Source: Agilicoccus flavus
GTDB lineage: Bacteria > Actinomycetota > Actinomycetes > Actinomycetales > Dermatophilaceae
NCBI RefSeq assembly: GCF_014857905.1
Contig: NZ_JACYXE010000001.1
Location: forward strand, 558,001 to 622,000
Reading direction: 5' to 3'
DNA length: 64,000 bases
Shown one piece after another: positions 3,313 to 57,087 of this stretch (position 1 is its first letter; every line of letters begins with the position of its first letter). Made by a program: the position numbers and the translations under genes. The notes beneath the pieces are model-generated. The model searched no databases and had not been told where the DNA came from. It was given only the letters and a program-made list of their open reading frames with translations.

Positions 3313-3422
3313 ACGCCAAGGTAGGCGAGTCGGTCGCGAACAGCCCGTGGAGGCAGACACGCCGTCGCGCGAGGACGCCGCGAAGGTCGCGGCGCCGGGT
3401 CGGGTGACGGAGGATCGCTCTC

Positions 3423-3753
3423 ATGAGTCTGTCCGCACGACGGCTGCAGCGGACCGCCCGGGACACGGCCCGAGGCCTCGACAACGTGACGAACGGGCGG
3501 CCCTTCACCGAGCACCTCGACGTGTTCAAGGTCGGGGCGAAGGTGTTTCTCATCGTCACCGACGACCCCGCCGAGCCCATCATCACAGTCAAGGCCGACC
3601 CCGACCGGGGCGACGACCTCCGCTGCCGACACCCCACGATCGTCCCGGGCCGCTACCTCGACAAGACCCTGGATCAGCATCGGCCCAGGACCAGGCATCA
3701 CGGAACGCCTCGTCCGAGAGCTCGTGCAGGATTCCTACGACCTCGCGCGCTGA
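3423..3753 (+). pseudogene. MmcQ/YjbR-family protein gene with a frameshift
   Basis: The first about 82 codons encode a YjbR-family fold (NGRPFTEHLDVFKVG, ITVKADPDRGDDLRCRHP, VPGRYLDKT), a small double-wing DNA-binding-like domain of unknown role. At about 3669 the frame slips: the expected C-terminus continues in the next frame as WISIGPGPGITE ... ELVQDSYDLAR and stops at 3751-3753. Removing one base restores an approximately 109-aa product of normal family length. This is an insertion-type lesion, unlike the single-base losses seen elsewhere in the window. It could be genuine decay or sequence error. Confidence 0.7.
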
Positions 3754-3881
3754 GCGCGGCGAGGACGCCCGACCCATGACGAAACCCGGAGAGGGTGAGA
3801 CGTGCGAAACGGGTGCGCGTCGACCCGCACTCGACCGCGGCCGGGCACGGACAGCGCCGGCGCGCGCCGAGGCCCCGCCGC

Positions 3882-5245
3882 TCAGAACGACGTGACGCGC
3901 GGGGTGTTGCCGATCGGGGAGCCGTCGGATCGGGTCCATCGAACTCCGTCGGGGGTGACTTTGCCTCTGTGTCGTTGTCGGTGGACTTCGGTGTGGTGGT
4001 GACGACAGAGCAAGGCCAGATTCGTCATAGCCGTTCGCCCGCCGATCCCTCTGTCGCGCTCACTGCGGCTCGCAAGCTCGCCTCCGTTCGCCGCTCCCAG
4101 GGCCCAATAGATCAAGTGGTGCCCGTCGCATCAGGCCGGCGGGATCGTGCATCCCGGGAAGGTGCAGCGGCCGTCGCGCTGCTGCAGCGCGAGGCGCTGA
4201 GCGGGGGTGATGAGGCGCTTCGCGTGGCCGAGGTCGAGGAGTTCGCTCTTGGTGCCGAGGACGGCGGGGATGATCTGGGCGTCGCAGCCGAGGATCCGCG
4301 CCTCGCTCGGCGACAGCGCCTGCGAAAACCCGGTGGTCGCCCAGCCCTGATCGGCCGCGGCCTCCTCGAGGCCGGACATGAGGGTCTCGAGCGGGATCGT
4401 CACGACGACCTTCGCCTTCGTCCCCGACCCGGGGACGCTGCGGTCGGCTTCGGTGGCCGCGGCGACCATGTCGAGCAGCGCATCCGCGCGGCGGGCGCCG
4501 GCCGAGCGGGGGTCGAGGTTGCCGTGTTCGTCGGTGATCGGCGCGGACAGGGCGTTGATCGCCGCCGTGAAGACGGCTTCCGAGGCCGGGTCGAGTCGCA
4601 ACGTCGCGACCAGCATCCCGTTCCGGTCCCGATGAAAGCCGGTGAGTTCGCGCCGGTCCCGGAGGCGCTCGTGCTGGTCCGCCAGCCGGCCGGGGATCCC
4701 GTACTGACCGATCAGGAGGTCCACGATCGCCGCGAAATCCTTGACGGGCGCACCCTCGGCCGCATGGTCGATGAGGATCGCCAGCAGCGCGTCCCAGTTC
4801 GGGTACTCGATGCCCCGCTTCAACCGCCGGAACGACTTCGCCACCACCCCCGGCCAGGTCGATCCCGACCCGCCCCTCGGTTACGGCCGTGCGCAGGGCG
4901 GCCACGTCGTAACCGACGCACGTCTGAGCGACCTCGTGCAGGTTCCGCGCCTGGGCCTTCGCCACCGGCACCCCCGCGTCCCGGCAGGACTGCTCCACCT
5001 ACGCCCGCGTCCTGGGGTGATCGGACTCCGCGATCACCCCTCGCGCCGACGCCTCCAACACGATCGCCGCCTGCGCGGCGGACGCCGCCGCGACCAACTC
5101 CGCCGTCAACGCGGCCAAGCCCGCCGACTCCGCATTCGCCACCGCGGACAAACCCCGCGGGAAAAGCCAGAATGGCGTCGATCTGTGCCCGCAACCCATC
5201 GCCGGCCGGCACGGCCGGCGACTCGGGAAGGGTGGTCGACGTCAT
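3882..5245 (-). pseudogene. DUF222-HNH endonuclease-like gene (13E12-type), copy 1, decayed
   Basis: Actinobacterial DUF222 protein with a C-terminal HNH nuclease motif, of uncertain function and often in multiple genomic copies. Starting at ATG 5245 I see four lesions relative to an intact frame: an extra A near 5165 (AAAA where copy 2 has AAA); a TAG near 5000 where copy 2 has Trp (DHPRTRA*); an extra G in a G5 tract near 4855; and TGA at the Trp of the HNH segment (CTIPPA*CDGHH) near 4133. The HNH core is otherwise readable (CTFPGC ... CDGHH ... LCRHHH). The last two lesions are shared with copy 2 at 48.8-50.2 kb, so the common ancestor was probably already broken. Confidence 0.85.
4003..4151 (-). 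repeat. 149-bp block identical to 48929-49077
   Basis: By direct reading, these 149 bases match 48929-49077 with no difference, whereas flanking parts of the two DUF222-HNH copies differ every few tens of bases. The block covers the HNH core, the in-frame TGA and an apparent insert in the core. It suggests recent gene conversion or a conserved mobile segment. Confidence 0.8.
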
Positions 5246-5380
5246 GCCCCATTCTATCGAACACGCATCCGATAACCGGGTTGTCCACAGGCGAGCGACC
5301 TACTGCCGCAACGGTATCCGAGGCCTCTTGGTCGGCCCGAAAAGCGTTGCGACGCAGGCCCTCTCGCTACCCCCTTTACC

Positions 5381-5396
5381 TGTGATCTAGGTCACA
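5381..5396. promoter_or_regulatory. CRP/GlxR-type site upstream of DUF222-HNH copy 1
   Basis: TGTGATCTAGGTCACA is a perfect TGTGA-N6-TCACA dyad, the consensus for CRP/GlxR-family regulators. It lies 136 nt before the ATG at 5245. An equivalent site sits at exactly the same distance before copy 2. It is also 140 nt upstream of the divergent GNAT-NUDIX gene, which it could serve instead. Confidence 0.65.
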
Positions 5397-5536
5397 TTTG
5401 AATGCGTGTCGCGCGCGAGATCACCGGCTGACTCGGTCCTGCGGCCGCACCCGTGCATCTCCTGCCCACGCACGATCCGCCGACCTGACCTCGCCGTGAG
5501 CCCGCAGCGCTCAACCCCGAGAACGCTCGTAGGCTC

Positions 5537-6694
5537 GTGAAGGTGACCGTAAGAGTCAGCTCCGTGCGGATCGCGCAGGAGGAGGACGTGCCCCTGCTCG
5601 AGGAGATCGAGGCGGCGGGGGACCGGCAGTTCGCCCCGCTGTTCGACACCTCGGCGTTCGCGACGACGAGCGGCGCCCACCGGGTCGCGCACGGCACGGT
5701 CCTCGTCATCGGCTCCCCCGCGCAGGGGTTCGCGCACGTCGTCGAGCTCGAGGACGGCAGCCCGCACCTGGAGCAGATCGTCGTGCACCCGCGGGCCCAG
5801 CGCCGCGGGCTCGGGCGCGCGCTCCTGCGGGCGGCGTACGGGATCGTCCGCGACCACGGCACCGACCGGCTCACGTCGACGACGTACGCGGACGTGCCGT
5901 GGAACGCCCCCTGGTACGCCGGCAGCGGCTTCACCGTCGTGCCGCGCCCGCGCGGGGCGCTCGCGCGGGTCGTCGCCGACGAACGCGCGGCCGGGCTCGA
6001 CCGCGTCGCGTCACGCGTGGCGATGAGCCGAACCGTGCGCGACGAGCCGGTCCCGATCCCCGCGGTCAGCGTCCTGCCGCTACGCGACGGCCCGTGTGGG
6101 CTGGAGGTCTTCGTGCAGCACCGGGTCGCGACGATGGACTTCGTCCCGGGAGCGGTCGTCTTCCCGGGCGGACGCATCGACGCCGGCGACGCCGCCGCCG
6201 GGGCCGCGATCGACCTGCCGACCACCCTCGTCGCCGAGCACGCGCGCGCCTGGCGGCACACCGCCTCCTCCGTCCTCGGCGACGAGGAGACCGCGGCGCG
6301 GACGGTGCTCGCCTGCGCCGTGCGTGAGGTCGCCGAGGAGACGAGCGCCGCGATCGACCCGGCGCGCCTCCTCCCGTGGGACGACTGGGAGACGCCGATC
6401 GGGGTGCCGAAGCGGTTCGACGTCCGTTTCCTCGTGCTGCCGGTGACCTCCACCGCGGAGGCGGCCGCCTTCCAGCACGTGACGACCGAGGCCCACCGGT
6501 CGGAATGGCTACTCGCCGCCGACGTCGACCGCGCCGCGCAGGACGGGTCGCTGCTGCTCGTGACGCCGACCCGCATCCTCGTCGAGGAGCTCGTGCAGCT
6601 CGGCTCGCTCGCGGCCGTGGTGGCCCTGCGGCCGCCGATCCGGCGCGTCCGCGACGACCTGTGCGCGACCCCGACCCGGCGAGGCCGCCTGTGA
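5537..6694 (+). CDS. GNAT acetyltransferase - NUDIX hydrolase fusion protein
   Basis: A 385-aa two-domain protein. Residues about 5-140 form a GNAT N-acetyltransferase with the acetyl-CoA motif A (QIVVHPRAQRRGLGRALL) and a typical C-terminal SGF strand. Residues about 165-375 form a NUDIX hydrolase whose Nudix box is split: GAVVFPGGRIDAGD and TVLACAVREVAEET are separated by about 40 residues, as in NUDT19/NUDT8-like CoA-diphosphatase relatives. A GTG start at 5537 is used. The substrate pair is unknown; a link between acyl-CoA use and CoA or nucleotide clean-up is a guess. No obvious operon partner. Confidence 0.82.
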   Translation: MKVTVRVSSVRIAQEEDVPLLEEIEAAGDRQFAPLFDTSAFATTSGAHRVAHGTVLVIGSPAQGFAHVVELEDGSPHLEQIVVHPRAQRRGLGRALLRAAYGIVRDHGTDRLTSTTYADVPWNAPWYAGSGFTVVPRPRGALARVVADERAAGLDRVASRVAMSRTVRDEPVPIPAVSVLPLRDGPCGLEVFVQHRVATMDFVPGAVVFPGGRIDAGDAAAGAAIDLPTTLVAEHARAWRHTASSVLGDEETAARTVLACAVREVAEETSAAIDPARLLPWDDWETPIGVPKRFDVRFLVLPVTSTAEAAAFQHVTTEAHRSEWLLAADVDRAAQDGSLLLVTPTRILVEELVQLGSLAAVVALRPPIRRVRDDLCATPTRRGRL

Positions 6695-6746
6695 CGTGTC
6701 GTCATCTCGCCATCGACCGCGGCGAGGCGGATCGCACGCAGCGTGC

Positions 6747-8005
6747 CTACCAGCGCAGCGTGTTCGGCTCGAAGTCGGGCTCGATCGTGCGCATGTAGGC
6801 GGTGTCGGCGCGATCGCGCACGCCGCACGCCAGGTACTGCTCGTGGAGCAGCCCGACGGCGTCCTCGTCGAGCTCGACGCCCAGCCCGGGCCCGGTCGGC
6901 ACGGTGACGGCGCCGCCGCTGAAGTCGAGCACCCCGGGCCGCACGATGTCCTGGGTCTTCCACGGGTAATGGGTGTCGCACGCGTAGGTGAGCTGCTCGG
7001 TCGCGGCGGCGAGGTGCACCATCGCGGCGAGGCTGACGCCGAGGTGGGAGTTGGAGTGCATCGACAGGCCGAGGCCGAACGTCGAGGCGATCCCGCCGAG
7101 GAGCTGGCTGCGCCGCAGCCCCCCCACAGGTGGTGGTCGGAGAGCACGACCTGCACGGCGTCGGCGAGCACCGCGGGCCGCACGTGCTCGAAGGCGATGA
7201 CGCACATGTTCGTCGCGAGCGGGATATCGGTGCCCGCGGCGACCTGGGCCATCGCCTCGATGCCGACGGTCGGGTCCTCGAGGTACTCGATGACGCCGTC
7301 GAGGGCGCCCGCCACCCGCAGCGACGTCTCGACGCCCCAGGCCCCGTTGGGGTCGATCCGCAGCTTGTGGCCGGGGAACGCCTCGGCGAGCGCGCGGATC
7401 GCCTCGATCTCGGCGTCGGGCTCGAAGACCCCGGCCTTGAGCTTGATCGCCTCGAAGCCGTACTCCTGCACCATGCGCCGCGCCTGGGCCACGATCTGCT
7501 CGGGGGTGAGGGCCTCGCCCCAGTCATCCTCGGGCAGCCCGGGATGACCGGCCCACTTGTAGAACAGGTAGGCGCTGAAGGGCACGACGTCACGGACGGC
7601 CCCGCCGAGCAGGGAGCTGACCGGCACGCCCGCCTGAGCGGCCTGGATGTCGAGGGAGGCGACCTTGAAGGGCGAGAAGACGAGGTCCGTGGCCGCCGAC
7701 AGGTCGAGCATGTCGCCGAAGCTCGCGCCCGCGCCCCCCGCCCCGGTGAGCGTCGCGTCGACGACCCGCCGCATCCCGTGCAGGTCGCGGACGTCGTGGC
7801 CGGCCAGGGCCGACGCGCACGCGGCGAGCCGCTCGAGGTGCGCCGTGTCGCCGTACGTCTCGCCGAGCCCCACGCTGCCGTCGTCGGTGCGCACGCGCAC
7901 GAGCGCCCGAAGCGCCCACGGCTGGTGCACCCCGACAACGTTGAGCAGCGGCGGGTCGGCGAGGGCGAGCGGCGTGACCTCGACCGCCGCGATGCGCGAG
8001 GCCAT
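6747..8005 (-). pseudogene. gudD: Glucarate dehydratase-like enolase-superfamily gene, frameshifted (gudD1)
   Basis: Enolase-superfamily acid-sugar dehydratase. Visible active-site elements: KLK (base lysines) in AIKLKAG, metal-binding DPNGAW and LEDPT, and the His-Asn pair in LSMHSNSHLG, all as in glucarate dehydratase. It would convert D-glucarate (or galactarate/idarate) to 5-keto-4-deoxyglucarate. The frame breaks in a run of seven C at about 7119-7125 (HHLWGG, then LRRSQLL in the next frame). One extra base restores a 419-aa protein of normal length. It is last in the tctCBA-usp operon and its ATG overlaps the usp stop. Either sequence error or a fresh pseudogene. Confidence 0.82.
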
Positions 8006-33466: not shown

Positions 33467-36301
33467 TCACGGGGCCCCCACCCGCTGCCCGGCGAGCACG
33501 CGGGTGGCCCACGCGGCGACAGCGGTGCGGTCGACCTTCGACTCGTGCCGGATGTCGACGGGCACCCTCGGCGCGAGGAGCACGGCGGCCACGTCGAGAC
33601 CGGCGGGTGCGGCCTCCCGGACGCGGGCGGCGAGGCTCGGCGGGGCGAGCCGCGGCGCGTGGCGGGCGAGGCCGGGCAGCCGCCTCGCGACGCGGGCGTG
33701 GTCCGGCTCGAGGACGAGGACGACGACGACCTGCTGGGCGCCCCGGGGGCCGACGCCGACGACCGTCGCGGACGCGACGCCCGGCAGCGTGCCGGCGGCC
33801 TGCTCGAGCCCGACCGGCGTCACCGGCCCGGCGGCCGTGTGCAGGACGTGGACGCGGCGACCCTCGACCCACAGGCGGCCGCGGCCGTCGAGGTGGCCGA
33901 CGTCTCCGGTGCGGTGCACGCTCGGCGCGGGGCTGGTCTCGTGCTGGGTGGCCCACAACTGGTCGTAGCGGTCCTTGACGTGCGCGGCTCGCACGACGAT
34001 CTCGCCGGTGACGCCCGGCTCGTCGGTGAGCGCGCCGTCGGGGTCGTCGGGGTCGGCCGGCAGGGGCGCGATCCGCACGTCGACGCCGGGCAGCGGCACC
34101 CCCACGCACACCCCGCCGGCGGGGCCGCCGTCGTCGCGCGAAGCCTCGATCTCCTCGAGGGTGATGTCGCTGACCGGGAGGGTCTCGGTCATCCCGTACG
34201 GCGTGTGCGGGACGGCCGCGGGCATGACCTCGCGCACGGCGCGCAGCAGCGACACGGGCACGGGAGCGCCCGCGCTCATCACGGCCCGCACCCGCCCCAG
34301 GGCGGTCCGCTGCTCGTCGGTCAGATCCGAGGCGGTACGCACGACGTTGCGCAGGGCGGCCGGGGAGGCGAAGACGACGGTGGCCTCCGCGGCGAGGACC
34401 GCGTCGGCAAGGGCCGCGGCGGACAGGGAGCCGGGCCGGGTCACGTCCATGTCGGGCACGACCGCGCCGATGCCGAGCGCGGGTCCGTACAGCGCGAACG
34501 GGGCGAAGGCGGCGACGAGCCGGTCGCCGGGCTCCAGCTCGTAGATGCCCCCGACGTGCCCGATCATCGTGCGCAGCCCGTCGGTGCGGTAGAGCACACC
34601 CTTGCTCGGGCCGGTGGCACCGGACGTGAAGAGCACGGCGCACTCGGCGTCGGGCTCGCGCTCCCGGAGCGGGCCCGGGCCGTCGTCGTGGGCGACGCGC
34701 TCCTCGTCGTCGCGGTCGATCCGACGCGCGGGGGTCTCGCTCCGACGCAGCTCGTCGAGTGTCGCGGTCACGCCGAGCGTGCGGCGCAGGGCTGGCGCGA
34801 CGGGTCCGGCGACGATGCGGGCGCCGGGCACGCGCATCGCCGCGCACGCCGCGATGCCCTGGGCGATCCCGACGACGAACGCGGGTCCCGCGCCGCGCAG
34901 CGCCCGGCCCGTCGACGCGAGGCCGAGGCCGGCGTCGGCGACGACGATGACGGCGCCGACCCGCCAGGCCGCGTAGACGGCGACGGTGAGGTCGATGCCG
35001 GGCGGCACGAGAAGGGCGACCCGGTCGCCGTCGCGCATGCCGAGGCGGGCGAACCCGGCGGCGACCGCCGCGACGTCGGTCTCCAGCTCGGCGAACGACA
35101 TCCGGCGGCCGGTGCGCATCTCGGTGACGCACAGCTCGTCGGGGGTGGCGGCGACCGCGTCGAGCAGGCCCTGCCACGGCACCTCGGCCGTGCCCACCGC
35201 GACCTCGGGCACCGGAGGCCGGCCGGCGAGGAACCCGTCGGTCGGCGCCGCGACGGCGGGCGGGCCCGACGCGGCGGCCGCCTCGCGCGGGGCCAGGGTG
35301 GGGGTGACGCGCTGCGCCACCCACGCCCAGATGTCGGCCGCCGAGCGGGGCGCGTCCTCGAGGACGAGGTGCGAGGCCGTCTCGTAGCGGTGGACGTCGG
35401 CGCGCGGGAGCCGGCGGCGCAGGTCCCGCAGGTGCGCCTCGGAGAAGACGGGGTCCTTCGGTCCGCGCAGGAGGAGCGCGGGGAACTCGGCCAACGCGCT
35501 CATGCCCGCGGCGACCCCGGCGAGCGTGGCGCGCGTGGGGTGCCCCTCCTCGAGGGGGATGTCGGCGACGAACGCGCCGACGGAGCCGCGGTCGGCGGCG
35601 GAGCCGTACGGCGCCGCGTAGGCGCGCGCCACCGCCGCGTCGGGCCGTGGCGACGAGACGGCCGTCGCGCCGCGGACGAAGGCGGGGGTGTCGACGCACG
35701 CCGCCCGCCAGGCCAGCGGGTGCCGGGCGAGGCGCAGCGCCGGGGGCAACCCGGCCGCGAAGTCGTGGTGCACGGCAGTGTTGGCGAGCACGATCCCGGC
35801 GACGCGGATCGGGTCGGCGGTCTCGCCCTCCCCCGCTCCGGAGGCGTCGTCGGCAGGAGGGTCGGCGGGAGCGTCGGCAACGGCGTCGGCGGCGAGGGGA
35901 CGAGCGTGCCGCTGCGCCCACCCCGAGACGACCATGCCGCCCCAGTCGTGGCCGACGGCGACGACGGGACCGCGCACGTCGAGGGCGGCGGCGAGCCGGT
36001 CGAGGTCCTCGATGCGTTGGGCGAGGGTGCGGGTGGGGTCCGGTCCGAGGCGCTCGGAGTAGCCCATGCCGAGCTGGTCGACGGCGATCACGCGCCAGTC
36101 GTCCGGGGCGGCGGCGAGCACGCGGCGCCACAGGTAGCTCCACGTCGGGTTGCCGTGGACGCAGAGCATCGTCCCCACCGGTTCGCCCTGCGGGCGCCGC
36201 TCCAGGACGTGCCAGCGGCGGGGGACCCCGTCGGCGTCGGGCGCCTCCAGCTCGAGCGACCAGGAGGGGTCCAGCCCGGGCAGACCGGCCGGCGGCCTCA
36301 C
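33467..36301 (-). CDS. oleBC: OleBC fusion: beta-lactone decarboxylase plus beta-lactone synthetase
   Basis: A 944-aa two-enzyme fusion. Residues about 1-370 are an alpha/beta-hydrolase of the haloalkane-dehalogenase-like OleB type (LCVHGNPTWSYLWR; nucleophile Asp in VGHDWGGMV; YETASHLVLEDAP), which decarboxylates a beta-lactone to a cis-olefin. Residues about 400-944 are an AMP-forming ligase-like OleC (P-loop FTSGATGPSKGVLYRT; PYGMTETLPVS; HRTGDVGHLDGRGRLW), which makes the beta-lactone from the beta-hydroxy acid. GTG start at 36301 overlaps the oleA stop. OleBC fusions are characteristic of actinobacteria such as Micrococcus. A D/A/P-rich insert at about 130-160 lies in the hydrolase cap. 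Confidence 0.92.
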   Translation of the reverse strand: MRPPAGLPGLDPSWSLELEAPDADGVPRRWHVLERRPQGEPVGTMLCVHGNPTWSYLWRRVLAAAPDDWRVIAVDQLGMGYSERLGPDPTRTLAQRIEDLDRLAAALDVRGPVVAVGHDWGGMVVSGWAQRHARPLAADAVADAPADPPADDASGAGEGETADPIRVAGIVLANTAVHHDFAAGLPPALRLARHPLAWRAACVDTPAFVRGATAVSSPRPDAAVARAYAAPYGSAADRGSVGAFVADIPLEEGHPTRATLAGVAAGMSALAEFPALLLRGPKDPVFSEAHLRDLRRRLPRADVHRYETASHLVLEDAPRSAADIWAWVAQRVTPTLAPREAAAASGPPAVAAPTDGFLAGRPPVPEVAVGTAEVPWQGLLDAVAATPDELCVTEMRTGRRMSFAELETDVAAVAAGFARLGMRDGDRVALLVPPGIDLTVAVYAAWRVGAVIVVADAGLGLASTGRALRGAGPAFVVGIAQGIAACAAMRVPGARIVAGPVAPALRRTLGVTATLDELRRSETPARRIDRDDEERVAHDDGPGPLREREPDAECAVLFTSGATGPSKGVLYRTDGLRTMIGHVGGIYELEPGDRLVAAFAPFALYGPALGIGAVVPDMDVTRPGSLSAAALADAVLAAEATVVFASPAALRNVVRTASDLTDEQRTALGRVRAVMSAGAPVPVSLLRAVREVMPAAVPHTPYGMTETLPVSDITLEEIEASRDDGGPAGGVCVGVPLPGVDVRIAPLPADPDDPDGALTDEPGVTGEIVVRAAHVKDRYDQLWATQHETSPAPSVHRTGDVGHLDGRGRLWVEGRRVHVLHTAAGPVTPVGLEQAAGTLPGVASATVVGVGPRGAQQVVVVLVLEPDHARVARRLPGLARHAPRLAPPSLAARVREAAPAGLDVAAVLLAPRVPVDIRHESKVDRTAVAAWATRVLAGQRVGAP

Positions 36302-37314
36302 CATTCGATCTCGAGGAAGGCCGTGTTGAGGCCGGAGCCGATGCCCATGAGCAGGACGCGGTCGCCCGCGGAGTAGTCGGGCGCCACCCGGGCGAGGGTG
36401 AAGGGCAGGGCGGCCGGACCGATGTTGCCGAACGTCGGGATCGTCAGGGGGAACTTCTCCCGGGGCAGCCCCAGCGCCTGGCACAGGCTGTCGATGTGCG
36501 CGGTCGACGTCTGGTGCGCGACGTAGGCGTCCATGTCGGACCAGTCGAACGTCTGCTGGGCGTCGCGCCACGTCTCGATGGCGAGCCCGATGCCCTCGAC
36601 GAACAGGCGCCGCCCGTCGGTGACCATCCCGTCCATGGAGCCGATGCACAGCTCGTGGTGCTCGCTGCCGGCGCGGGTGACGCCGCCGACGACGCGGTGG
36701 CCGCCCTCCGACGCCCGCCCGACGAGCACGCCGACGGCGCCCGACCCGAGCGTGAAGGTCGCGAAGGCGTCCTTGACGTCCTGCCGCGACGGGCTCCCGG
36801 CCACGAGGCGCGCGATCGTCGCCTCCTGCGGCCCGCGCATCCCCTCGGAGGCGACGACGAGCGCGTACTCGATCTGGCCGGCGTCGATCATCGTGCCGGC
36901 GACCTGGATCGCGTTGACGACGGCGAGGCAGGCGTTCGTGATGTCGAAGGCGATGCAGTTGCTGCGCAGCCCGAGCTCGTGGTGGACGCGCGCGGCGATG
37001 GCCGGCTCCAGGTGCGGGCGGGTGACCGAGGCGTTGACGACGAGGCCGATGCGGGAGGGGTCCACCCCCGTGCGCTCGAGGACGAGGCGCCCGGCGTCGA
37101 CGGCGCCCTCGACGAAGTCCTTCTCCTTGGGCCACCAGCGGCGCTCGCGCACCCCGGCGAGCTCCTCGATCGCACCCGGCGACATCTTGACGCTCCGGTA
37201 CACCGGGGCGAGCATCTCGTCGATCTCGTCGGAGGTGACCACCTCCGGAGCCTCGATCATCTCGACCCCGTGGATCGCGGTGTCGCGGGGGTGGAACGTC
37301 GCGTTGCCCGTCAT
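36298..37314 (-). CDS. oleA: OleA: long-chain acyl-CoA condensing enzyme
   Basis: A 338-aa thiolase-fold enzyme related to FabH that joins two fatty acyl-CoAs head to head to give a 2-alkyl-3-ketoalkanoic acid. The catalytic Cys is in FDITNACLAVVNA; His in VAHQTSTAH and Asn in FGNIGPAALP complete the triad. It begins MTGNATFHPRDTAIHGV at ATG 37314. First gene of the tight oleA-oleBC pair (GTGA overlap), then oleD and the glycosylase. The products would be long-chain internal monoalkenes, as described for Micrococcus relatives. Confidence 0.93.
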   Translation of the reverse strand: MTGNATFHPRDTAIHGVEMIEAPEVVTSDEIDEMLAPVYRSVKMSPGAIEELAGVRERRWWPKEKDFVEGAVDAGRLVLERTGVDPSRIGLVVNASVTRPHLEPAIAARVHHELGLRSNCIAFDITNACLAVVNAIQVAGTMIDAGQIEYALVVASEGMRGPQEATIARLVAGSPSRQDVKDAFATFTLGSGAVGVLVGRASEGGHRVVGGVTRAGSEHHELCIGSMDGMVTDGRRLFVEGIGLAIETWRDAQQTFDWSDMDAYVAHQTSTAHIDSLCQALGLPREKFPLTIPTFGNIGPAALPFTLARVAPDYSAGDRVLLMGIGSGLNTAFLEIEW

Positions 37315-37543: not shown

Positions 37544-38200
37544 TCATCCGTGGGCCGCGCCCGTCTCGGCGCCCAGGATCGTCGTCGTCACCGCCACGAC
37601 GGCGGGCCGCTCCGGCGTGGAGCCGAACCCGAAGTCGGGGGCGGGCGAGACCGGCGCGAGCGCCCCGAGGTCGACGCCGTCCCACGTGGCCGTGAGGGCG
37701 GTGACGGCGTGCATGCCGCGCGCCCCGTAGAACTCCCGCCGTCCGTGACCGGCGCTGCCGCGGGTGCGGACACCGCGGAGGGCGACGCGGGCGACGGGGT
37801 CGGTCAGGCGGGTGAAACCGGCCGACGTCGCGAGCCGGGCGGGCACGAGCGACAGCAGTCGGCCCAGCGGGGTCGGCCCACCGATCCGCACCCGCATCGC
37901 GAGGGGGCCCGCGCGGACGACCCACACGTCGCCGACGAGGTCGCCGTCACCGGCGGGCCCGAAGCCGCGCTCTCGGACGACCTGCACGTCGACGACCTCG
38001 ACCTCGTCGAACTGGTAGGTGCTCGAGACGTACTCCGCGATGCGCGCATCGGGGGCGAGCAGGATGCGCCGCCCGTCGGGCCGCGCGACCATGACGTCGG
38101 CGAACGCCCCGAACGGGGTCCGCGCCCAGTTCCCGAGCACGATGCGTGTCCCGGACGTCGTCCCGACGCCGAGGATGTGCCCCGAGAATCTTTCCAGCAT
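37544..38200 (-). CDS. Conserved-type hypothetical protein, 218 aa
   Basis: I do not recognise a function. The 218-aa protein is soluble and rich in beta strands by eye. Landmarks are LGNWARTPFGAFADVMV, RRILLAPDARIAEYVSSTYQF and HGRREFYGARGMHAVT. No signal peptide or membrane helix. It lies 91 nt after fahA and 229 nt before oleA on the same strand, so it could be the last gene of the homogentisate operon or independent. Reading frame is intact with high third-position GC, which supports it being real. Confidence 0.7.
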   Translation of the reverse strand: MLERFSGHILGVGTTSGTRIVLGNWARTPFGAFADVMVARPDGRRILLAPDARIAEYVSSTYQFDEVEVVDVQVVRERGFGPAGDGDLVGDVWVVRAGPLAMRVRIGGPTPLGRLLSLVPARLATSAGFTRLTDPVARVALRGVRTRGSAGHGRREFYGARGMHAVTALTATWDGVDLGALAPVSPAPDFGFGSTPERPAVVAVTTTILGAETGAAHG

Positions 38201-38291: not shown

Positions 38292-39470
38292 TCAGCAGCG
38301 CGCAGGGAGAATGCTCGCCGTCACCTCGCCGAAGGAGACGCGCTCGCCGCCGGCGCCGAGGGCGGTCGCCGTGATCGTCACCGTGTCGCCGTCGAGCAGG
38401 AACGTGCGCTCCTGCCCGCCGACGTCGACGGGCTCCTTCCCGCCCCAGGTCAACTCGATGAAGGCGCCGCGCTGGTCCGCGCCCGGCCCCGAGATCGTGC
38501 CCGAGGCGAAGATGTCGCCGGTACGCGTCCGCGCACCGTTGACCGTCGTGTGGGCCAGCATCTGCGCGGGGCTCCAGTACATCTCGCGGTACGGGGGGCG
38601 GCTCACCTCGTGGCCGTTCCACCTGACCGAGAGGTCGATGTCGAGACCCCACGGCTCGTCCATCCGCAGGTAGGGCAACGGCGTGGGTTCCTGCGTCGGG
38701 GTCGGCACCCTCGCCGCCTCGAGCGCCGCCATGGGGACGACCCACGGGCTGATCGAGCTCGCGAAGCTCTTGCCGAGATTGGGGCCGAGCGGCACGTACT
38801 CCCACGCCTGGATGTCGCGGGCCGACCAGTCGTTGAAGATGACCGCGCCGAACAGGTGCTCGTCCGCGGCGCCCGTGCCGATCGACGAACCCATGTCGTT
38901 GCCGACCCCGACGAGGAAGCCCAGCTCGGCCTCGATGTCGAGACGCACGCTCGGGCCGAACACGGGTTCCGGGTCGTTCGGGCCCTTGCGCTGACCGCAC
39001 GGTCGGACGACGTCGACGCCCGAGACGACGATCGTGCTCGACCGGCCGTGATAGCCGACGGGCAGGTGCTTCCAGTTCGGCAGGAGGGGGTCGGGATTGT
39101 CGGGCCGGAACAACCGCCCGAGATTCGAGGCGTGGTGCTCGCTCGCGTAGAAGTCGACGTAGTCGGCGATCTCGCACGGCAGGTGCATGGTCACCTCGCC
39201 CACCGGGTGGAGCGCCGCGTCGGGGACGTCGGCCCTCACCGCCGCGCGGATGGCCTCACGGACCTGCGCCCACCGCCGCGGGCCCGCCGCCATGAACGTC
39301 TCGAGGGTCCCGGCGGCGAAGTCGTCGTCACCCAGCAGGACGGCGAGGTCGACGACGACGTCGCCCACCCGCGTGGCGCACCGCCGCGGCCCGCCGGCCA
39401 CGGAATACACGCCGTACGGCAGGTTGGCGAGGCCGAAGCCGGAGTCGGCGGGGATGTCGAGCAAGGTCAC
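38292..39470 (-). CDS. fahA: Fumarylacetoacetase
   Basis: A 392-aa fumarylacetoacetate hydrolase, the last step of tyrosine/homogentisate breakdown, giving fumarate and acetoacetate. Recognisable: DYVDFYASEHHASNLGRLFR, LPVGYHGRSST, metal-binding EAELGFLVG, and FNDWSARDIQAWEY ... LGKSFASSISPW. C-terminal DIFASGTISGP is typical. GTG start at 39470 overlaps the stop of the preceding unknown gene by 4 nt. Order is hmgA-unknown-fahA. Confidence 0.93.
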   Translation of the reverse strand: MTLLDIPADSGFGLANLPYGVYSVAGGPRRCATRVGDVVVDLAVLLGDDDFAAGTLETFMAAGPRRWAQVREAIRAAVRADVPDAALHPVGEVTMHLPCEIADYVDFYASEHHASNLGRLFRPDNPDPLLPNWKHLPVGYHGRSSTIVVSGVDVVRPCGQRKGPNDPEPVFGPSVRLDIEAELGFLVGVGNDMGSSIGTGAADEHLFGAVIFNDWSARDIQAWEYVPLGPNLGKSFASSISPWVVPMAALEAARVPTPTQEPTPLPYLRMDEPWGLDIDLSVRWNGHEVSRPPYREMYWSPAQMLAHTTVNGARTRTGDIFASGTISGPGADQRGAFIELTWGGKEPVDVGGQERTFLLDGDTVTITATALGAGGERVSFGEVTASILPARC

Positions 39471-40357
39471 GGGGTCTCCTTCGCGGGGCCGACGAGGCCC
39501 AGGTCGACGAGGTCGTCGAGGGGGTCGGTGATGCTGCACGTGCCGAACGAGACGAAGGTGCGCCGCAGGGCCGCCCCCCGCTCGTCGTCGAGGCCGGCGA
39601 ACCGCGCCGCGAGCTCGGCGCCGTCGCGCTCGGCGAGGATCGCGACGAGGTCGTCCTCGGACCCGCCGCGCAGGGCGGCGTCGGTCGCGAGCATGAGGTT
39701 GAGGAAGCCGTGCTGGTCGAGCCCGGTCTCCGGGTCCACGGCGCGCACCGCGTGATGGAGGCCGGCGGTGGCCTTGAACGCCAGACCCCGCGCGACGGCG
39801 TCGAGGACCGCGCGCGCGAGTTCCGCCTCGCCGGGGACGAGGTCGGCCTCGACCCCGCCGGTGCGGAACTTCGCCCGGTAGGGCGACCCGGCCAGCGCGG
39901 CGAGGAGGTCGGGGCGCCGGTCGTCGCGGGGCACCTCGACGTACACGTCGAGCGCGCCGCCGGCGACGTCCATCCCGGCGAGGGCCCCGTCGAGGGCGGG
40001 CACGACCGCGTCGGCCGCCATGGAGGGCGGCACGGCGACCTCGAGGGCCCGCAGCCGCAGCGGCGGCAGCAACGCGACGGTGGTGACGACGGCCTGGACC
40101 CCGTCGGGAGCCGGCACGGTGACCGCGATGTCGAGCGAGCCGGCCGGGCGGCCCCGGACGAGCGGCGGGAGGTCGAGCAGCCGGGCCGCGCCGAGCACGA
40201 ACGGGCCGACCAACGCCCCGTGCGGGCCGCGCCGGTGCCGCTCGTGGGCGGGAACCGCCTCCGGGAGCGGGACGAGGCCGGGCGGGAAGATCGCCGCGTC
40301 ATCGCAGAGCCGGCGCAGGACGGGCGGGATCGACAGCGCCGTCGACGTCTCGCTCAT
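39467..40357 (-). CDS. Uncharacterised protein of the homogentisate operon, 296 aa
   Basis: No function that I can name. The 296-aa soluble protein overlaps both neighbours by 4 nt (hmgA stop and fahA start), so it is translationally coupled between homogentisate dioxygenase and fumarylacetoacetase. Landmarks: LCDDAAIFPPGLVPLPEAV near the N-terminus, YRAKFRTGG (about residue 160), GLAFKATAGLHHAVR and DQHGFLNLMLA, and FVSFGTCSITDPLDDL at the end. The KFRTGG and FKATAGLHH pieces resemble beta-strand ends of a TIM-barrel active site (inference). The operon lacks a recognisable maleylacetoacetate isomerase, and this gene sits exactly where that step is needed. Confidence 0.85.
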   Translation of the reverse strand: MSETSTALSIPPVLRRLCDDAAIFPPGLVPLPEAVPAHERHRRGPHGALVGPFVLGAARLLDLPPLVRGRPAGSLDIAVTVPAPDGVQAVVTTVALLPPLRLRALEVAVPPSMAADAVVPALDGALAGMDVAGGALDVYVEVPRDDRRPDLLAALAGSPYRAKFRTGGVEADLVPGEAELARAVLDAVARGLAFKATAGLHHAVRAVDPETGLDQHGFLNLMLATDAALRGGSEDDLVAILAERDGAELAARFAGLDDERGAALRRTFVSFGTCSITDPLDDLVDLGLVGPAKETP

Positions 40358-41604
40358 CGCTGCTCCCCCGCCCGGCGGCCACCGGTCCACGACCACGCGT
40401 ACACGCCGTCGTCGCAGGCGAACGCGGCCTCCCCGAGGTCGAGCGGCCGGAACGTGTCGACCATGACGGCGGTCTCGTCGAAGCGCTCGGCGCCGAGGCT
40501 CGCCTCCATCGCGCCGGGCTGCGGCCCGTGGGCGTGCCCGCCCGGGTGCAGCGAGATCGAGCCTCGCCCGATCCCAGAGCCCTTCCGGGCCTCGTAGTCG
40601 CCGGCGACGTAGAACATCACCTCGTCGGAGTCGACGTTGGAGTGGTAGTAGGGCACCGGGATCGCCAGCGGGTGGTAGTCGACCTTGCGCGGCACGAAGT
40701 TGCAGACGACGAAGTTGTTCCCCTCCCACACCTGGTGGGCGGGCGGCGGCTGGTGGACGCGGCCGGTGATGGGCTCGAAGTCGTCGATGTGGAAGAGGAA
40801 CGGGTAGAGGCAGCCGTCCCACCCGACGACGTCGAGCGGGTGGTGCGGGAGCACGTGGATCGTGCCGCCGACGCCGCCCGAACCGTGGCCGCGGTGCTTG
40901 AGGTAGACCTCGGTGGGCTCCGACGGGTCGGCACCGACGTCCTCGGCGAGCAGCGGGGCCGTGGGCACGACGTAGTCGCGCTCGCAGAACGGGCTGTGCT
41001 CGAGGAGCTGACCGAACCGGCTCAGGTAGCGCCGCGGCGGGGTGATGTGGCTGTTCGCCTCGATCGCGTAGGCGCGGAACGGCTCGACGTAGCCGTCGTC
41101 GCCGGGCGCCAGGGGCAGCCAGCGGTGCGTCGTGGCCCGCGGGATGATCGCGTAGTGGCCCTCGCGGACGTCGAAGGCGCCGAACACGGTCTCCAGTCGG
41201 GCGTTCCCGCGCTCGACGTAGACGCATTCGTCGCCGATGGCGTTGCGGTACCAGGGGCTCGGCGCGTCGGCCGCCACGTAGGTGAGGCGGACGTCGGCGT
41301 TGCCGAGGACGAGCCGGCGCCCCCGGACCGCGTCGACCCCGGCCTCGCTGCCCGCCTCGAAGAGGTCGTGCAGCTTGAGGTGGAGCGGCTTGAGCGGGTG
41401 GTTCGGCGTGAGCGACAGGTCCCCGACCTCCCACTCGCGGACGTCGAGGATCGCCGAGGGGATGTTGCGGTGGTAGAGCAGCGAGCTGTCGGCCGAGAAG
41501 CCCTCCTCCCCCATGAGCTCCTCGTAGTAGAGGCGGCCGTCGGGGTCGCGGTGCTGGGTGTGCCGCTTGGGCGGGACGTGCCCGAGGTTGCGGTAGTAGG
41601 CCAT
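40354..41604 (-). CDS. hmgA: Homogentisate 1,2-dioxygenase
   Basis: A 416-aa Fe(II) ring-cleavage dioxygenase converting homogentisate to maleylacetoacetate. The iron site is visible as YYHSNVDSDE (His and Glu) and HPGGHAHGP (second His). MAYYRNLGHVPPKRHTQ at the start and EVYLKHRGHGSGGVGG mid-protein are typical of the actinobacterial form. First gene of the operon hmgA-unknown-fahA. Divergent from a MarR regulator, with a perfect 10-bp inverted repeat 25 nt upstream of its ATG. Confidence 0.93.
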   Translation of the reverse strand: MAYYRNLGHVPPKRHTQHRDPDGRLYYEELMGEEGFSADSSLLYHRNIPSAILDVREWEVGDLSLTPNHPLKPLHLKLHDLFEAGSEAGVDAVRGRRLVLGNADVRLTYVAADAPSPWYRNAIGDECVYVERGNARLETVFGAFDVREGHYAIIPRATTHRWLPLAPGDDGYVEPFRAYAIEANSHITPPRRYLSRFGQLLEHSPFCERDYVVPTAPLLAEDVGADPSEPTEVYLKHRGHGSGGVGGTIHVLPHHPLDVVGWDGCLYPFLFHIDDFEPITGRVHQPPPAHQVWEGNNFVVCNFVPRKVDYHPLAIPVPYYHSNVDSDEVMFYVAGDYEARKGSGIGRGSISLHPGGHAHGPQPGAMEASLGAERFDETAVMVDTFRPLDLGEAAFACDDGVYAWSWTGGRRAGEQR

Positions 41605-41703: not shown

Positions 41704-42225
41704 ATGGACGGGGAGCTGACGTTCTGGTCGTTCGTGCCCCGCGCCCGCGCCCGGCTGGCCGAGGAGTTCGGCTACGACGACGTCTCCGCGACCGAGCTGT
41801 TGCTCACCCTCAACCGCGCCTCGGGCGTCGTCACCTACGACCTCGAGGCGGCCGTGCACCGGCCGGCCGGCCGGTCCTGGTCGAGCTTTCGCATCCTCTA
41901 CGTCCTCTGGCTCGCCGGACCGCTGGAGGCGAAGAAGACGGCCGAGCTCACGGGCCTGAGCCGCGCCGCGCTGTCGAACCTGCTCGGCCCCCTGGCCGCC
42001 GACGGGATCGTCGACCGCGAGCGCGACCCCGACGACGGGCGCTCGGTCCGCCTGTCGCTGAGCGACGCGGGGCGGCGCGAGATCGCCGAGACGTTCCGCG
42101 CCCATCACGAGCGCGAGATCGCCTGGGCCGCCGCCCTGTCCCCCGACGAGCAGGCCACCCTCGTGCGACTGCTCGACAAGCTCGTCGCCCACCGCGACGA
42201 CCTCGACGTGCGCCACCGCAGCTGA
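41704..42225 (+). CDS. MarR-family transcriptional regulator
   Basis: A 173-aa winged-HTH protein: SSFRILYVLWLAGPLEAKKTAELTGLSRAALSNLL (read in parts) is the recognition region, and RERDPDDGRSVRLSLSDAG is the wing, both typical of MarR. Divergent from the hmgA operon, which it probably represses; homogentisate or an earlier aromatic acid is the expected ligand (inference). ATG at 41704 is preceded by AAAGGA. Confidence 0.9.
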   Translation: MDGELTFWSFVPRARARLAEEFGYDDVSATELLLTLNRASGVVTYDLEAAVHRPAGRSWSSFRILYVLWLAGPLEAKKTAELTGLSRAALSNLLGPLAADGIVDRERDPDDGRSVRLSLSDAGRREIAETFRAHHEREIAWAAALSPDEQATLVRLLDKLVAHRDDLDVRHRS

Positions 42226-42365
42226 CCCCCGGCCCGAGAAGCCGGGCACGCATCACGGACGAGGGTCGGGCGGCCGCGCGGTGGCGCCCACCGGTCGCGG
42301 GAGGCGTCGCCTGTCAGGCTGTGCCACGAGCGACCGAGCAGACCCGCCGACCACCGAAGGACACC

Positions 42366-44858
42366 ATGAGCGACGCGACAGGCCCCGCGCACCGGTCGGG
42401 CAGCGGCGGGTGGGCACCCGGGACGCGCCACGATTCCGGCTGCATCGGGGTGCGCGGGGCGCGGCTGCACAACCTGCGGGACGTCGACGTCGACGTGCCC
42501 CGGGGGCGGCTCGTCGCGTTCACCGGCGTCTCGGGCTCGGGCAAGTCCTCCCTCGCGTTCGGCACCATCCACGGGGAGGCGCAGCGCCGCTACTTCGAGT
42601 CGGTGGCGCCGTTCGCGCGGCGGCTCATCCACACGGCCGTCGACCCGCAGGTCCGCGACATCACCGGGTTGCCGCCGGCGGTCGCGCTCGAGCAGCGCGC
42701 CGCGGCGACGAGCCGCCGCTCGAGCGTCGGCACCGTGACGACGACCTCGAACACCCTGCGGATGCTGTGGTCCCGGTGCGGCGACTACCCCGCCGGGCTC
42801 GAGCGGATCGACTCCGACCACTTCTCGGCGAACACCGCCGCGGGGGCGTGCCCGGGGTGCGGCGGCCTCGGGCAGGTGCACGAGCCGACCGAGGCCTCGA
42901 TGGTGCCCGACCCGTCGCTGAGCATCGCGCAGAAGGCCATCGCGTCCTGGCCGGGCGCCTGGCAGGGCAAGAACTACCGCGACATCGTCGCGACCCTCGG
43001 CTACGACATCGACCGGCCGTGGCGGGAGCTGCCCCAGGCGGACCGCGACTTCCTCCTCTTCTCCGAGCAGGAGCCGGTCGTCACCGTGCACTCGGTCCGC
43101 GAGGCGCACCGCATCCAACGGCCCTACCAGGGCACGTTCGCGAGCGCCCGCCGTCACCTGCTGCGGACGCTCGCCTCGGCGAGCCCGACCCAGCGCCGCC
43201 GGGCCCTGCGCTTCGTCGAGACGACGCCGTGCCCGCGCTGCCGCGGCCGCCGCCTGCACCCCGACGCCCTGCGCGTCACGTGGCAGGGGCTGGCGATCGA
43301 CGAGGCGAGCCACCTGCCGATCGACGAGCTCACCCCGCTGCTGCGGGCGCGGCTGGAGGAACTCGTGGCCGCGGTCCCGGACGGGATCGGCGACGCGGAG
43401 TCGATGCTGCTGCGCGACGTGCTGTCCCGCCTCGACGTGCTCGTCGAGCTGGGCCTGGGCCACCTCGACCTCGCGCGGCCCACCCCGGCGGTCTCGGCGG
43501 GCGAGCTGCAGCGGCTTCGCCTCGCGACGCTGCTGCGCTCGGGACTGTTCGGGGTCGTCTACGTGCTCGACGAGCCGTCGGCCGGGCTGCATCCCCGCGA
43601 TGCCGAGCCCCTGCTGCGGCTGCTGCGCGACCTCGTCGACGCGGGCAACAGCGTGCTCGTCGTCGAGCACGACATGGCCCTCGTCGCCCGCTGCGACGAC
43701 GTCGTCGACGTCGGCCCCGGCGCCGGAGGATTCGGCGGCCGGGTGCTCTACGTCGGGGCGCCTGAGGGCCTGCCCGCGGTCGGCGAGTCGGCGACGGGCC
43801 GCTACCTGCCCGCGCCCGTGCACGCCGACGAGATCCGGACCGGCGCACCGCGGGCCGCGTCCGGCGCGCTGACCGTGCGCGGGGTGGCCCTGCACAACCT
43901 CGACGGCCTCGACGTCGAGGTGCCGCTGGGGTCGTTCACCGTCGTCACGGGCGTCTCGGGGTCGGGTAAGTCGTCGCTGCTCACCGCCCTCGACGCGGCG
44001 GTGGGCGCCGCCCTGGAGCGCGGTGGCGACGCAGCGGGCGAGGACGAGGAGGCGGAGGACGCCGACGTCGATCTGCCGCCGCTCGACGCCGACGCCACGT
44101 GGACGGCGGTCGAGACCCGCGGCTCGGGCGCCCCGAGGCGGCTCGTGCGGATCACCCAGCGGCCGATCGGGCGGACCGTGCGCTCGAACCTCGCGACGTA
44201 CACCGGGCTGTTCGACCACGTCCGGCGCCGGTTCGCGGCCGAACCTGCCGCGCGGCAGCGCCGGTACTCCCCCGGCCGGTTCAGCTTCAACGTCGCGACG
44301 GGGCGCTGCCCCACGTGCCAGGGCGAGGGCGTCGTCGCGGTCGAGCTGCTCTTCCTGCCGGGGACCTCCTCGCCGTGCCCCGACTGCCGCGGGTCGCGCT
44401 ACGCGCCCGAGACCCTCGAGATCCGTCACCGCGGGCTCACGATCGCCGACATCCTCGACCTCACGGTCGCGCAGGCGGTGGAGGTGTTCGCCGACGACCC
44501 GCCCGTCCACCGGGCGCTCGCCGCGCTCGACTCCCTGGGCCTCGGCTACCTCGGCCTCGGCCGCCCCGCCACGGACCTCTCCGGCGGCGAGGCGCAGCGG
44601 ATCAAGCTCGCCACCGAGCTGCAGAAGGACCGCCGGGCGAGCACCCTCTACCTCTTCGACGAGCCGACGACCGGGCTGCACCCCTCCGACGCCCACCGGC
44701 TGCTCGCCCGCCTGCACAACCTCGTCGACCAGGGCCACACCGTCGTCCTCGTCGACCACCACCCCGCCGCGCTCGCCACCGCCGACCACGTCGTCGAACT
44801 CGGCCCCGGCGCCGGCTCGCGGGGCGGGCGGATCATCTCCGCCGGGCCGCGGCCCTGA
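42366..44858 (+). CDS. UvrA-like ABC-class ATPase (UvrA2 type)
   Basis: An 830-aa tandem ABC ATPase, shorter than repair UvrA (about 950). Walker A GVSGSGKSSLAFG (about residue 53) and GVSGSGKSSLLTAL (about 530); Walker B VLDEPSAGLHP and LFDEPTTGLHP; zinc-finger cysteines CPGCGGLG, CPRCRGRR and CPTCQGEG ... CPDCRG. The first signature is SAGELQR instead of SGGEXQR, the second is normal (LSGGEAQRIKL). Class-II UvrA proteins are linked to drug or DNA-adduct tolerance rather than normal UvrABC repair. ATG 42366 chosen. Convergent with the broken acyltransferase. Confidence 0.88.
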   Translation: MSDATGPAHRSGSGGWAPGTRHDSGCIGVRGARLHNLRDVDVDVPRGRLVAFTGVSGSGKSSLAFGTIHGEAQRRYFESVAPFARRLIHTAVDPQVRDITGLPPAVALEQRAAATSRRSSVGTVTTTSNTLRMLWSRCGDYPAGLERIDSDHFSANTAAGACPGCGGLGQVHEPTEASMVPDPSLSIAQKAIASWPGAWQGKNYRDIVATLGYDIDRPWRELPQADRDFLLFSEQEPVVTVHSVREAHRIQRPYQGTFASARRHLLRTLASASPTQRRRALRFVETTPCPRCRGRRLHPDALRVTWQGLAIDEASHLPIDELTPLLRARLEELVAAVPDGIGDAESMLLRDVLSRLDVLVELGLGHLDLARPTPAVSAGELQRLRLATLLRSGLFGVVYVLDEPSAGLHPRDAEPLLRLLRDLVDAGNSVLVVEHDMALVARCDDVVDVGPGAGGFGGRVLYVGAPEGLPAVGESATGRYLPAPVHADEIRTGAPRAASGALTVRGVALHNLDGLDVEVPLGSFTVVTGVSGSGKSSLLTALDAAVGAALERGGDAAGEDEEAEDADVDLPPLDADATWTAVETRGSGAPRRLVRITQRPIGRTVRSNLATYTGLFDHVRRRFAAEPAARQRRYSPGRFSFNVATGRCPTCQGEGVVAVELLFLPGTSSPCPDCRGSRYAPETLEIRHRGLTIADILDLTVAQAVEVFADDPPVHRALAALDSLGLGYLGLGRPATDLSGGEAQRIKLATELQKDRRASTLYLFDEPTTGLHPSDAHRLLARLHNLVDQGHTVVLVDHHPAALATADHVVELGPGAGSRGGRIISAGPRP

Positions 44859-56379: not shown

Positions 56380-57087
56380 TCAGCCGTAGGAGGGCAGGTC
56401 GGGCAGGTCGCTGTCGCTGCGCACGGCGTCGGCCCGGCCGCGGGCGAGCCAGGTGAGGACGCCGGCGCGGGAGCCGTACACGACCGGGCCGCCGCCGCCG
56501 ACCTGCCACGCGTCCTTCTCCTGGGTGCGCAGCTCCAGGCCGGGCGCCGCGTCGTTCGCCTCGAGCCGGCGGATCGCCTCCTCGAGCGCGTCGAGCTGGG
56601 CGTCGGGGTCGGCCTCCTCGAGCTCCCAGACGGTGTCGAGGTCGTCGTGGTGGAGGATCACCTCGGTGATCCGCGTGGCCACGAGGCCGCGGGCGGGCAC
56701 GGCCCGGCCGCGGATGGCGACGTCCTCGACCGCGAGGGTCCCCGCGAGGTCGCGGGCCGCGACACCGAACCGCTCGCAGGCGGCGGTGAGGTCGCGCTTG
56801 ATCTCGTCGTGGGGCCGCTGGGCGCCCTCGGCGATGGCGCGGTCACGCTCCTGCGTCGACGCGTAGGCGGGGGTCTCCTCCCCCGCCCGCGCCCAGTGGA
56901 CCAGGTTGACGAGGGCGTCGGCGTTGCGCGCGAGGTGCGTGACGACGTGGGCGCGCGTCCATCCCTCGCAGCGGGACGGGCCGGCCATCTCCTCCGCGGA
57001 CAGGCTGTCGACCGTGGCGAGCAGCATGCCCGTCTCGCGGTCGAGGCGGTTGAGATCGCCGGGGATTCGGGACGGGGACACGGTCAT
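56380..57087 (-). CDS. Mycothiol-dependent maleylpyruvate isomerase-like (DinB-fold) protein
   Basis: A 235-aa member of the MDMPI/TIGR03083 group. The expected zinc triad is kept: His in HVVTHLARN and Glu-x3-His in ITEVILHHDDL. RCEGWTRAHV is the usual N-terminal motif. MDMPI isomerises maleylpyruvate in the gentisate pathway using mycothiol; many relatives are uncharacterised thiol-transferases. It lies 41 nt after catC on the same strand, so it is probably the last gene of the cat cluster, where no such isomerisation is needed. ATG 57087. Confidence 0.8.
   Translation of the reverse strand: MTVSPSRIPGDLNRLDRETGMLLATVDSLSAEEMAGPSRCEGWTRAHVVTHLARNADALVNLVHWARAGEETPAYASTQERDRAIAEGAQRPHDEIKRDLTAACERFGVAARDLAGTLAVEDVAIRGRAVPARGLVATRITEVILHHDDLDTVWELEEADPDAQLDALEEAIRRLEANDAAPGLELRTQEKDAWQVGGGGPVVYGSRAGVLTWLARGRADAVRSDSDLPDLPSYG

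Follow-up and report, generated by a model that had tools for sequence, protein, structure and literature searches.

Which enzyme carries maleylacetoacetate from homogentisate 1,2-dioxygenase (HmgA) to fumarylacetoacetase (FahA) in Agilicoccus flavus is the question raised by a small operon in the 64,000-nucleotide (nt) stretch analysed here (the window; positions 558,001 to 622,000 of contig NZ_JACYXE010000001.1, forward strand). The known chemical gap between the two enzymes is a cis-trans isomerisation, and the operon holds a gene for a 296-amino-acid (aa) protein of an unnamed family between their genes. This protein (the candidate) is, we think probably, a maleylacetoacetate isomerase independent of any thiol cofactor that acts as a non-homologous stand-in for the isomerase MaiA in mycothiol-using actinobacteria, some bacilli and cyanobacteria. 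The three genes are, in order of transcription:

40354..41604, minus strand: hmgA-like gene for a homogentisate 1,2-dioxygenase, 416 aa, HgmA_N and HgmA_C over the Pfam cut-off, ATGA overlap with the candidate gene.
39467..40357, minus strand: gene for the candidate maleylacetoacetate isomerase, 296 aa, unnamed family, with ATG start and stop.
38292..39470, minus strand: fahA, fumarylacetoacetase, 392 aa, GTG start, TIGR01266 over the cut-off, GTGA overlap with the candidate gene.

The preliminary description of this DNA, which did not give the strand, had reported 4-nt overlaps on both sides of the 296-aa gene, and reading of the sequence confirms that it is coupled in this way between the hmgA-like gene and fahA. 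FahA scored 429.3 bits against TIGR01266 in the NCBIfam search (curated cut-off 375.3). The HmgA-like protein passed the Pfam cut-offs of both of its domains yet scored only 57 bits against TIGR01015 (cut-off 510.75) and is therefore regarded as a divergent dioxygenase; its relatives are annotated as homogentisate 1,2-dioxygenase in three plasmid regions and as cupin domain-containing protein in two others.

A tblastn search in plasmids returned 24 records with relatives of the candidate, from Streptomyces, Priestia, Pseudonocardia, Rhodococcus, Tsukamurella, Nonomuraea and Kovacikia, and the family is thus present in Actinomycetota, in Priestia and in the cyanobacterium Kovacikia; phage records gave no match to the gene. 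A scan of GTDB contigs detected at least 548 encoding stretches, of which the best 80 were kept and combined with 9 loci from genomes and 8 from plasmids into a set of 97 (L002-L098), in which hmgA and fahA were located by BLAST. Presence of the gene was the criterion for choosing these loci, which therefore show its location and not how frequently fahA is accompanied by it. In 88 of the 97 loci, fahA follows the gene immediately and on the same strand; in four (L071, L082, L086 and L087) it lies elsewhere in the locus, and in five (L019, L061, L068, L080 and L097, the last of which ends near the gene) it was not found; all six genomes searched have fahA over the cut-off, including the four for which it is missing from the locus stretch (L019, L061, L068 and L080). 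Relative to the candidate, hmgA occurs upstream on the same strand in 67 loci, divergently in 13 and elsewhere in one, and was not found in 16, some loci being short. A start with a 4-nt overlap is possible in 66 of the 91 loci having the candidate and fahA on one strand.

The arrangement varies between groups. In Priestia, fahA comes after the candidate gene and overlaps it by 4 nt, with hmgA located 3' of both; in Kovacikia the candidate gene (4989-5885) and fahA (5882-7189) overlap by 4 nt as well. Rhodococcus globerulus (L024) has hmgA, the candidate gene and fahA in a row, and the order hppD-hmgA-candidate-fahA in Tsukamurella points to homogentisate as the substrate. In all eight plasmid regions first inspected, the relative of the candidate is annotated as a hypothetical protein. 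CoA-transferase genes are found near the candidate gene in three plasmid regions and could use acetoacetate.

How often fahA is accompanied by the candidate was assessed in two sets of genomes. In a draw of 198 genomes from the phylum, fahA was over the cut-off in 20 and the candidate occurred in 10, all within those 20 (both 10, candidate only 0, fahA only 10, neither 178), a weak partial profile match in G003 (E 2.7e-4, model positions 44-164) being excluded. Among 97 relatives, the candidate and fahA over the cut-off were each detected in 49 (both 45, candidate only 4, fahA only 4, neither 44; Fisher p 3.6e-18, uncorrected for relatedness); here every match at E 0.001 was counted, including the short or diverged ones of G250, G252, G261, G267 and G283. 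Relatives with the candidate only were G210, G239, G252 (a fragment) and G283 (a diverged copy), and those with fahA only were G209, G225, G230 and G234. For 44 of the 51 candidate matches in these relatives, fahA lies on the same strand within 200 bases.

MaiA, glutathione-dependent, had been judged improbable in mycothiol-using actinobacteria, and this expectation was borne out: no MaiA match at E 0.001 was obtained in the host or in the 97 relatives, and none of the 198 genomes of the phylum draw had MaiA over the cut-off, 33 of them having matches below it. The same profile was over its cut-off in one of 14 control genomes. In the host, MshC was over the cut-off and mycothiol production is therefore expected. 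Because the candidate adjoins fahA in three phyla, MaiA over the cut-off is absent from the genomes examined and the protein is enzyme-like, its reading as the isomerase is favoured.

Searches with the protein itself did not place it in a described family. No Pfam family was over the cut-off, NCBIfam gave nothing up to E 1 (neither TIGR01262, the MaiA family, nor any other), and there was no match to PF11716 (MDMPI) at E 1; 84 family members searched against NCBIfam at E 0.01 gave one unrelated match, in one member only, and a PDB profile search with the family found no relative at E 5. Two sets of weak matches were taken as chance, namely CbiZ (for the protein, E 0.065 and 13.7 bits where the cut-off is 27; ten of the 84 members, best E 0.003) and, in a single-sequence PDB search, four matches of E 0.09-0.26 that all belong to one kind of effector-binding domain. 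A chance reading frame is ruled out by the relatives in three phyla and by the 84-row alignment, and a hidden MaiA or MDMPI by the absence of profile matches and a different predicted fold.

That alignment comprises 84 of 98 proteins, 14 having been left out to thin close copies. The segments KFRTGG (163-168) and FKATAGLHH (194-202), earlier picked out as looking conserved, are indeed present and conserved, with R165, K195, T197 and G199 in all 84 rows and K163 and H201 in 83. Altogether, 80 or more rows share the same residue at 14 polar positions: D19, D20, E106, E141, K163, R165, K195, T197, H201, R205, H216, N220, R265 and C274. D19, E106, E141, K163/R165, K195/T197 and C274 lie within predicted strands (18-20, 100-107, 137-141, 161-165, 194-197 and 268-273), at their C-terminal ends or immediately behind them, and active sites of TIM barrels sit at the C-terminal ends of strands. 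The codons of the residues most relevant below are:

39869..39871, minus strand: codon of K163 (KFRTGG), 83 of 84 rows, predicted strand 161-165.
39863..39865, minus strand: codon of R165, 84 of 84 rows.
39773..39775, minus strand: codon of K195 (FKATAGLHH), the proposed catalytic lysine, 84 of 84 rows, predicted strand 194-197.
39536..39538, minus strand: codon of C274, the proposed nucleophile, 83 of 84 rows, just after the predicted last strand 268-273.

An AlphaFold2 model built from a 76-row alignment (predicted local distance difference test score 96.4, predicted TM-score 0.93) confidently predicts that the candidate is a TIM barrel, aligned as one barrel over residues 9-291. Foldseek comparison with the PDB gave marginal E-values (1 of 1493 at E 0.001 or better), with TM-scores of 0.27-0.52 among the 50 matches listed, and its best matches were a de novo designed protein, carboxyltransferase domains, fructose-6-phosphate aldolase and DERA. 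VIA-align ranked DERA first (1n7k; Z 14.0, root mean square deviation 3.6, 208 aligned, 16% identity), and DERA or DERA-based designs, among which we count the Kemp eliminase KE70 as presumably DERA-derived, make up most of the first 42 rows. The next barrels, homocitrate synthase (Z 12.9) and PdxJ (Z 11.9), are close, so that a barrel is better shown than its aldolase type and the lead of DERA is modest. GST families are absent among the 50 VIA-align rows listed, which on its own excludes nothing.

Compared with known systems, MaiA (GST zeta; TIGR01262, EC 5.2.1.2) shares with the candidate the proposed reaction and the position between HmgA and FahA, but differs by its GST fold (a thioredoxin-like and a helical domain, against a predicted TIM barrel) and by the lack of a profile match, in a host that has MshC. 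The fold of MDMPI, as we assume it for this comparison, also differs from the one predicted here, and no profile match was found. DeoC/DERA (TIGR00126), a class I aldolase TIM barrel, is the best fold match, but kinship is not established by sequence profiles: hhalign against 25 DERA sequences gave E 0.074 and a probability of 0.8%, a single-sequence comparison with one DERA gave nothing useful, and there was no NCBIfam match. In the weak, non-significant alignment at E 0.074, K195 falls on the lysine of DERA KTSTGF and K163 on that of LKVI; the lysine of the KTSTG motif, on strand 6, is the Schiff-base lysine of DERA. The DERA alignment has an invariant K176 after K146, whereas the candidate has no second conserved lysine after K195 (only K163 and K195 are kept in at least 80 of the 84 rows); a further difference is the conserved cysteine of the candidate immediately behind its last strand. 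Since the title of PDB entry 7p76 describes a re-engineered DERA that catalyses Michael additions, with a Schiff-base complex, a DERA-type barrel can carry such chemistry.

A mechanism can be proposed tentatively, and with clearly less assurance than the function itself: an aldolase-like barrel might perform covalent cis-trans catalysis without a thiol cofactor, with K195 activating the ketone as an iminium and C274 replacing glutathione. Maleylacetoacetate made by HmgA would be bound by arginines and histidines, and K195 would activate the C4 ketone, perhaps, like the lysine of class I aldolases, through a Schiff base, or would serve as an acid-base lysine. The thiol of C274, or water, would then add to C2, the C2-C3 bond, by now single, would rotate, and the nucleophile would leave, the resulting fumarylacetoacetate passing to FahA. 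The least certain of these steps are the Schiff base and the part played by C274.

An isomerase of this place that works through a metal or general acid-base catalysis instead of a lysine Schiff base, like the DRE-TIM metallolyases or carboxyltransferases (homocitrate synthase, HMG-CoA lyase, pyruvate carboxylase), is in our view very improbable. Both are TIM barrels, homocitrate synthase has the Z-score of 12.9 given above, and Foldseek ranks the carboxyltransferase domain of oxaloacetate decarboxylase and pyruvate carboxylase beside the aldolases; the K-x-x-A-G-L stretch resembles what we take to be the KDMAGL of pyruvate carboxylase, and the cysteine near the last strand presumably has its like in HMG-CoA lyase. 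The H-x-H metal pair of the DRE-TIM enzymes, on the other hand, is not conserved in the candidate: in the stretch concerned, H216 is the sole invariant residue of the 84 rows (Q in Kovacikia), and position 215 is Q in 49 rows and H in 32. An hhalign comparison with one protein that we take from its sequence to be HMG-CoA lyase-like aligned 8 columns at E 0.33.

Several observations weigh against the candidate being the isomerase, or an aldolase-like one, in addition to the unestablished kinship with DERA and its modest lead. The first concerns fahA-positive genomes in which it is missing, and the co-occurrence statistics ignore phylogeny. Among the 49 fahA-positive relatives, 43 have a canonical copy or a copy cut by a contig end (G267) and six do not; the count is 43 and not 45 because the copy of G250 lacks K195 and that of G261 is a 27-residue remnant. 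G250 has hmgA-fahA, its only copy being diverged and located elsewhere. In G261 (L159), hmgA and fahA are divergent and the remnant of the candidate is found beside fahA (ca. 3651-3731), a case of natural loss that might reveal the bypass used. G225 and G230 (in each, a divergent pair) and G234 (same strand; a genome 58% complete) have adjoining hmgA and fahA without the candidate, and G209 has fahA without it, with no hmgA in the stretch. In the phylum draw, 10 of the 20 fahA-positive genomes lack the candidate: seven belong to one genus (g6, probably Streptomyces-like to judge by its place on the FahA tree) and have no hmgA in the fetched stretches, in two (G017 and G031) hmgA adjoins fahA, and for G175 the stretch contains no hmgA. 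A FahA tree of 110 rows made by a quick method (93 with and 17 without the candidate, the latter including G080, in which FahA is below the cut-off, G250 and G261) requires nine changes in candidate presence, at least six of them forced by well supported branches, against a mean of 16 after shuffling; the candidate has accordingly been gained or lost several times.

The co-occurrence with hmgA and fahA that had been anticipated for genomes without maiA therefore stands for the bulk of the relatives (45 with both, 44 with neither) and fails where hmgA and fahA occur without the candidate, so that the latter is not universally required. Organisms that have fahA and lack the candidate must rely on another isomerisation, on direct hydrolysis of the cis compound or on thiols. 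The proposal that this protein is the missing isomerase fares alike: co-occurrence, absence of MaiA, presence of mshC and conserved motifs all held, and a universal requirement did not.

This patchy absence beside an intact hmgA-fahA pair would also suit a non-essential role, the candidate being an aldolase, hydrolase or tautomerase that acts on a side product (e.g. succinylacetoacetate) or on a diketone enol as damage control. Such a role, with which class I aldolases as closest folds would agree as well, nonetheless seems quite unlikely given the usual place of the gene between those of both enzymes and its retention beside fahA in three phyla.

Further points against the isomerase reading come from individual sequences. 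L010 lacks K163, H201 and C274 despite an hmgA-candidate-fahA operon. The Kovacikia protein, which is outside the 84 rows, has P at 205 and Q at 216 instead of R205 and H216, and Kovacikia is presumably a glutathione producer. G121, which is candidate-positive, has GST-type matches below the MaiA cut-off.

Copies away from the operon are equivocal in the same respect. Within the alignment, K195 is kept wherever the candidate adjoins fahA. Eight copies come from locus stretches without fahA and hmgA; K195 is lost in four of them (replaced by I in L157, a gap in L158, V in L160 and H in L161) and kept in four (L061, L068, L080 and L156), a mixed outcome that counts against the reading. Three of the four copies without K195 have also lost K163, R165 or C274, L160 keeping those three. 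The genomes carrying L061, L068 and L080 have fahA elsewhere; L156 (G210), a further point against, keeps K195, has S at 274 and occurs in a genome without a fahA match. Conversely, the genomes of the K195-less copies comprise two with fahA (G241, in which a second copy lies beside fahA, and G250) and two without (G239 and G283). The loss of K195 thus coincides only in part with a lack of fahA. The K195-less copies, all away from fahA, are:

L157, 4341-5222: copy adjoined by a luciferase-like monooxygenase gene.
L160, 4943-5827: copy with RDD-DUF2510 genes nearby.
L161, 3898-4803: copy without K195.
L158, 3927-4748: copy with RDD-DUF2510 genes nearby.

RDD-DUF2510 genes also occur near fahA in L152 and L159.

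Lastly, the host genome contains ten MDMPI_N matches over the cut-off (two only with neighbours in frame), and such proteins might do the step with mycothiol, which speaks against the candidate and makes an MDMPI-type enzyme encoded elsewhere the nearest rival. One of the ten is in the window itself (ca. 56638-57042, minus strand, ca. 16 kb from the operon) and is a candidate for this mycothiol-dependent isomerase. If an MDMPI-type protein, or mycothiol without an enzyme, performed the isomerisation, the 296-aa protein would be a helper of the pathway, e.g. a partner of FahA. According to a review (PMC4360819), mycothiol is the cofactor of the Corynebacterium glutamicum maleylpyruvate isomerase, which catalyses a very similar reaction and makes MDMPI (PF11716) the actinobacterial answer to the analogous isomerisation in the gentisate pathway, and an enzyme of the mycothiol-dependent maleylpyruvate isomerase family is one of those whose genes are named in a figure legend for Streptomyces albidoflavus (PMC11012174). 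Genes annotated with a maleylpyruvate isomerase N-terminal domain are located ca. 3-4 kb from the candidate-fahA pair in two Streptomyces plasmids without hmgA nearby (L013, ca. 4006-4662; L018, ca. 3308-3964), and the hmgA-fahA genomes without the candidate are in line with this explanation too. By contrast, no feature is annotated as MDMPI in six plasmid regions with hmgA, the candidate and fahA (by names only, hypothetical proteins not being searched), and the conserved set of 14 polar residues would be unexpected in a mere helper. On balance we regard this explanation as unlikely, and retain the candidate as the probable isomerase.

The surroundings of the operon in the window comprise a MarR-family gene, which from its position is a possible regulator of the operon, and several genes of other kinds:

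41704..42225, plus strand: divergent MarR-family regulator, MarR over the Pfam cut-off.
42321-44858, plus strand: UvrA-type ATPase of 845 aa that passes the TIGR00630 cut-off but does not reach the 924 positions of the model; it may be a second, UvrA-like copy.
37544-38200, minus strand: open reading frame of 218 aa between fahA and a ketosynthase gene; Pfam gave no match at E 1, and all NCBIfam scores were well short of the cut-off.
33467-37314, minus strand: olefin (ole) type cluster.

This cluster includes a 3-oxoacyl-ACP synthase III (NF006720 over the cut-off), which we take to be OleA-like, and a fusion of an alpha/beta hydrolase with an AMP ligase, for which NCBIfam lists, below the cut-off, olefin beta-lactone synthetases among others.

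HmgA and HmgB proteins have been reported from Rhodococcus globerulus during growth on phenylalanine or 2-hydroxyphenylacetate, and the available passages of the same article name the isomerase HmgC only for Cupriavidus and for the general pathway (PMC11889516); those of another mention only the glutathione-dependent zeta-class enzyme (PMC10950700). In the titles and abstract openings covered, which did not extend to subscription journals and preprints and leave a report elsewhere possible, there was no description of the candidate family or of a non-GST maleylacetoacetate isomerase. Breakdown of tyrosine and homogentisate in actinobacteria is drawn with a maleylacetoacetate isomerase, yet MaiA was over the cut-off in none of the 198 and none of the 97 genomes. 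If the function proposed here is correct, an unnamed family would receive a function, a gap would be filled in the metabolic models of Streptomyces, Rhodococcus, Nocardia and their relatives, and a cis-trans isomerisation long tied to glutathione would have an unrelated enzyme built on a barrel.

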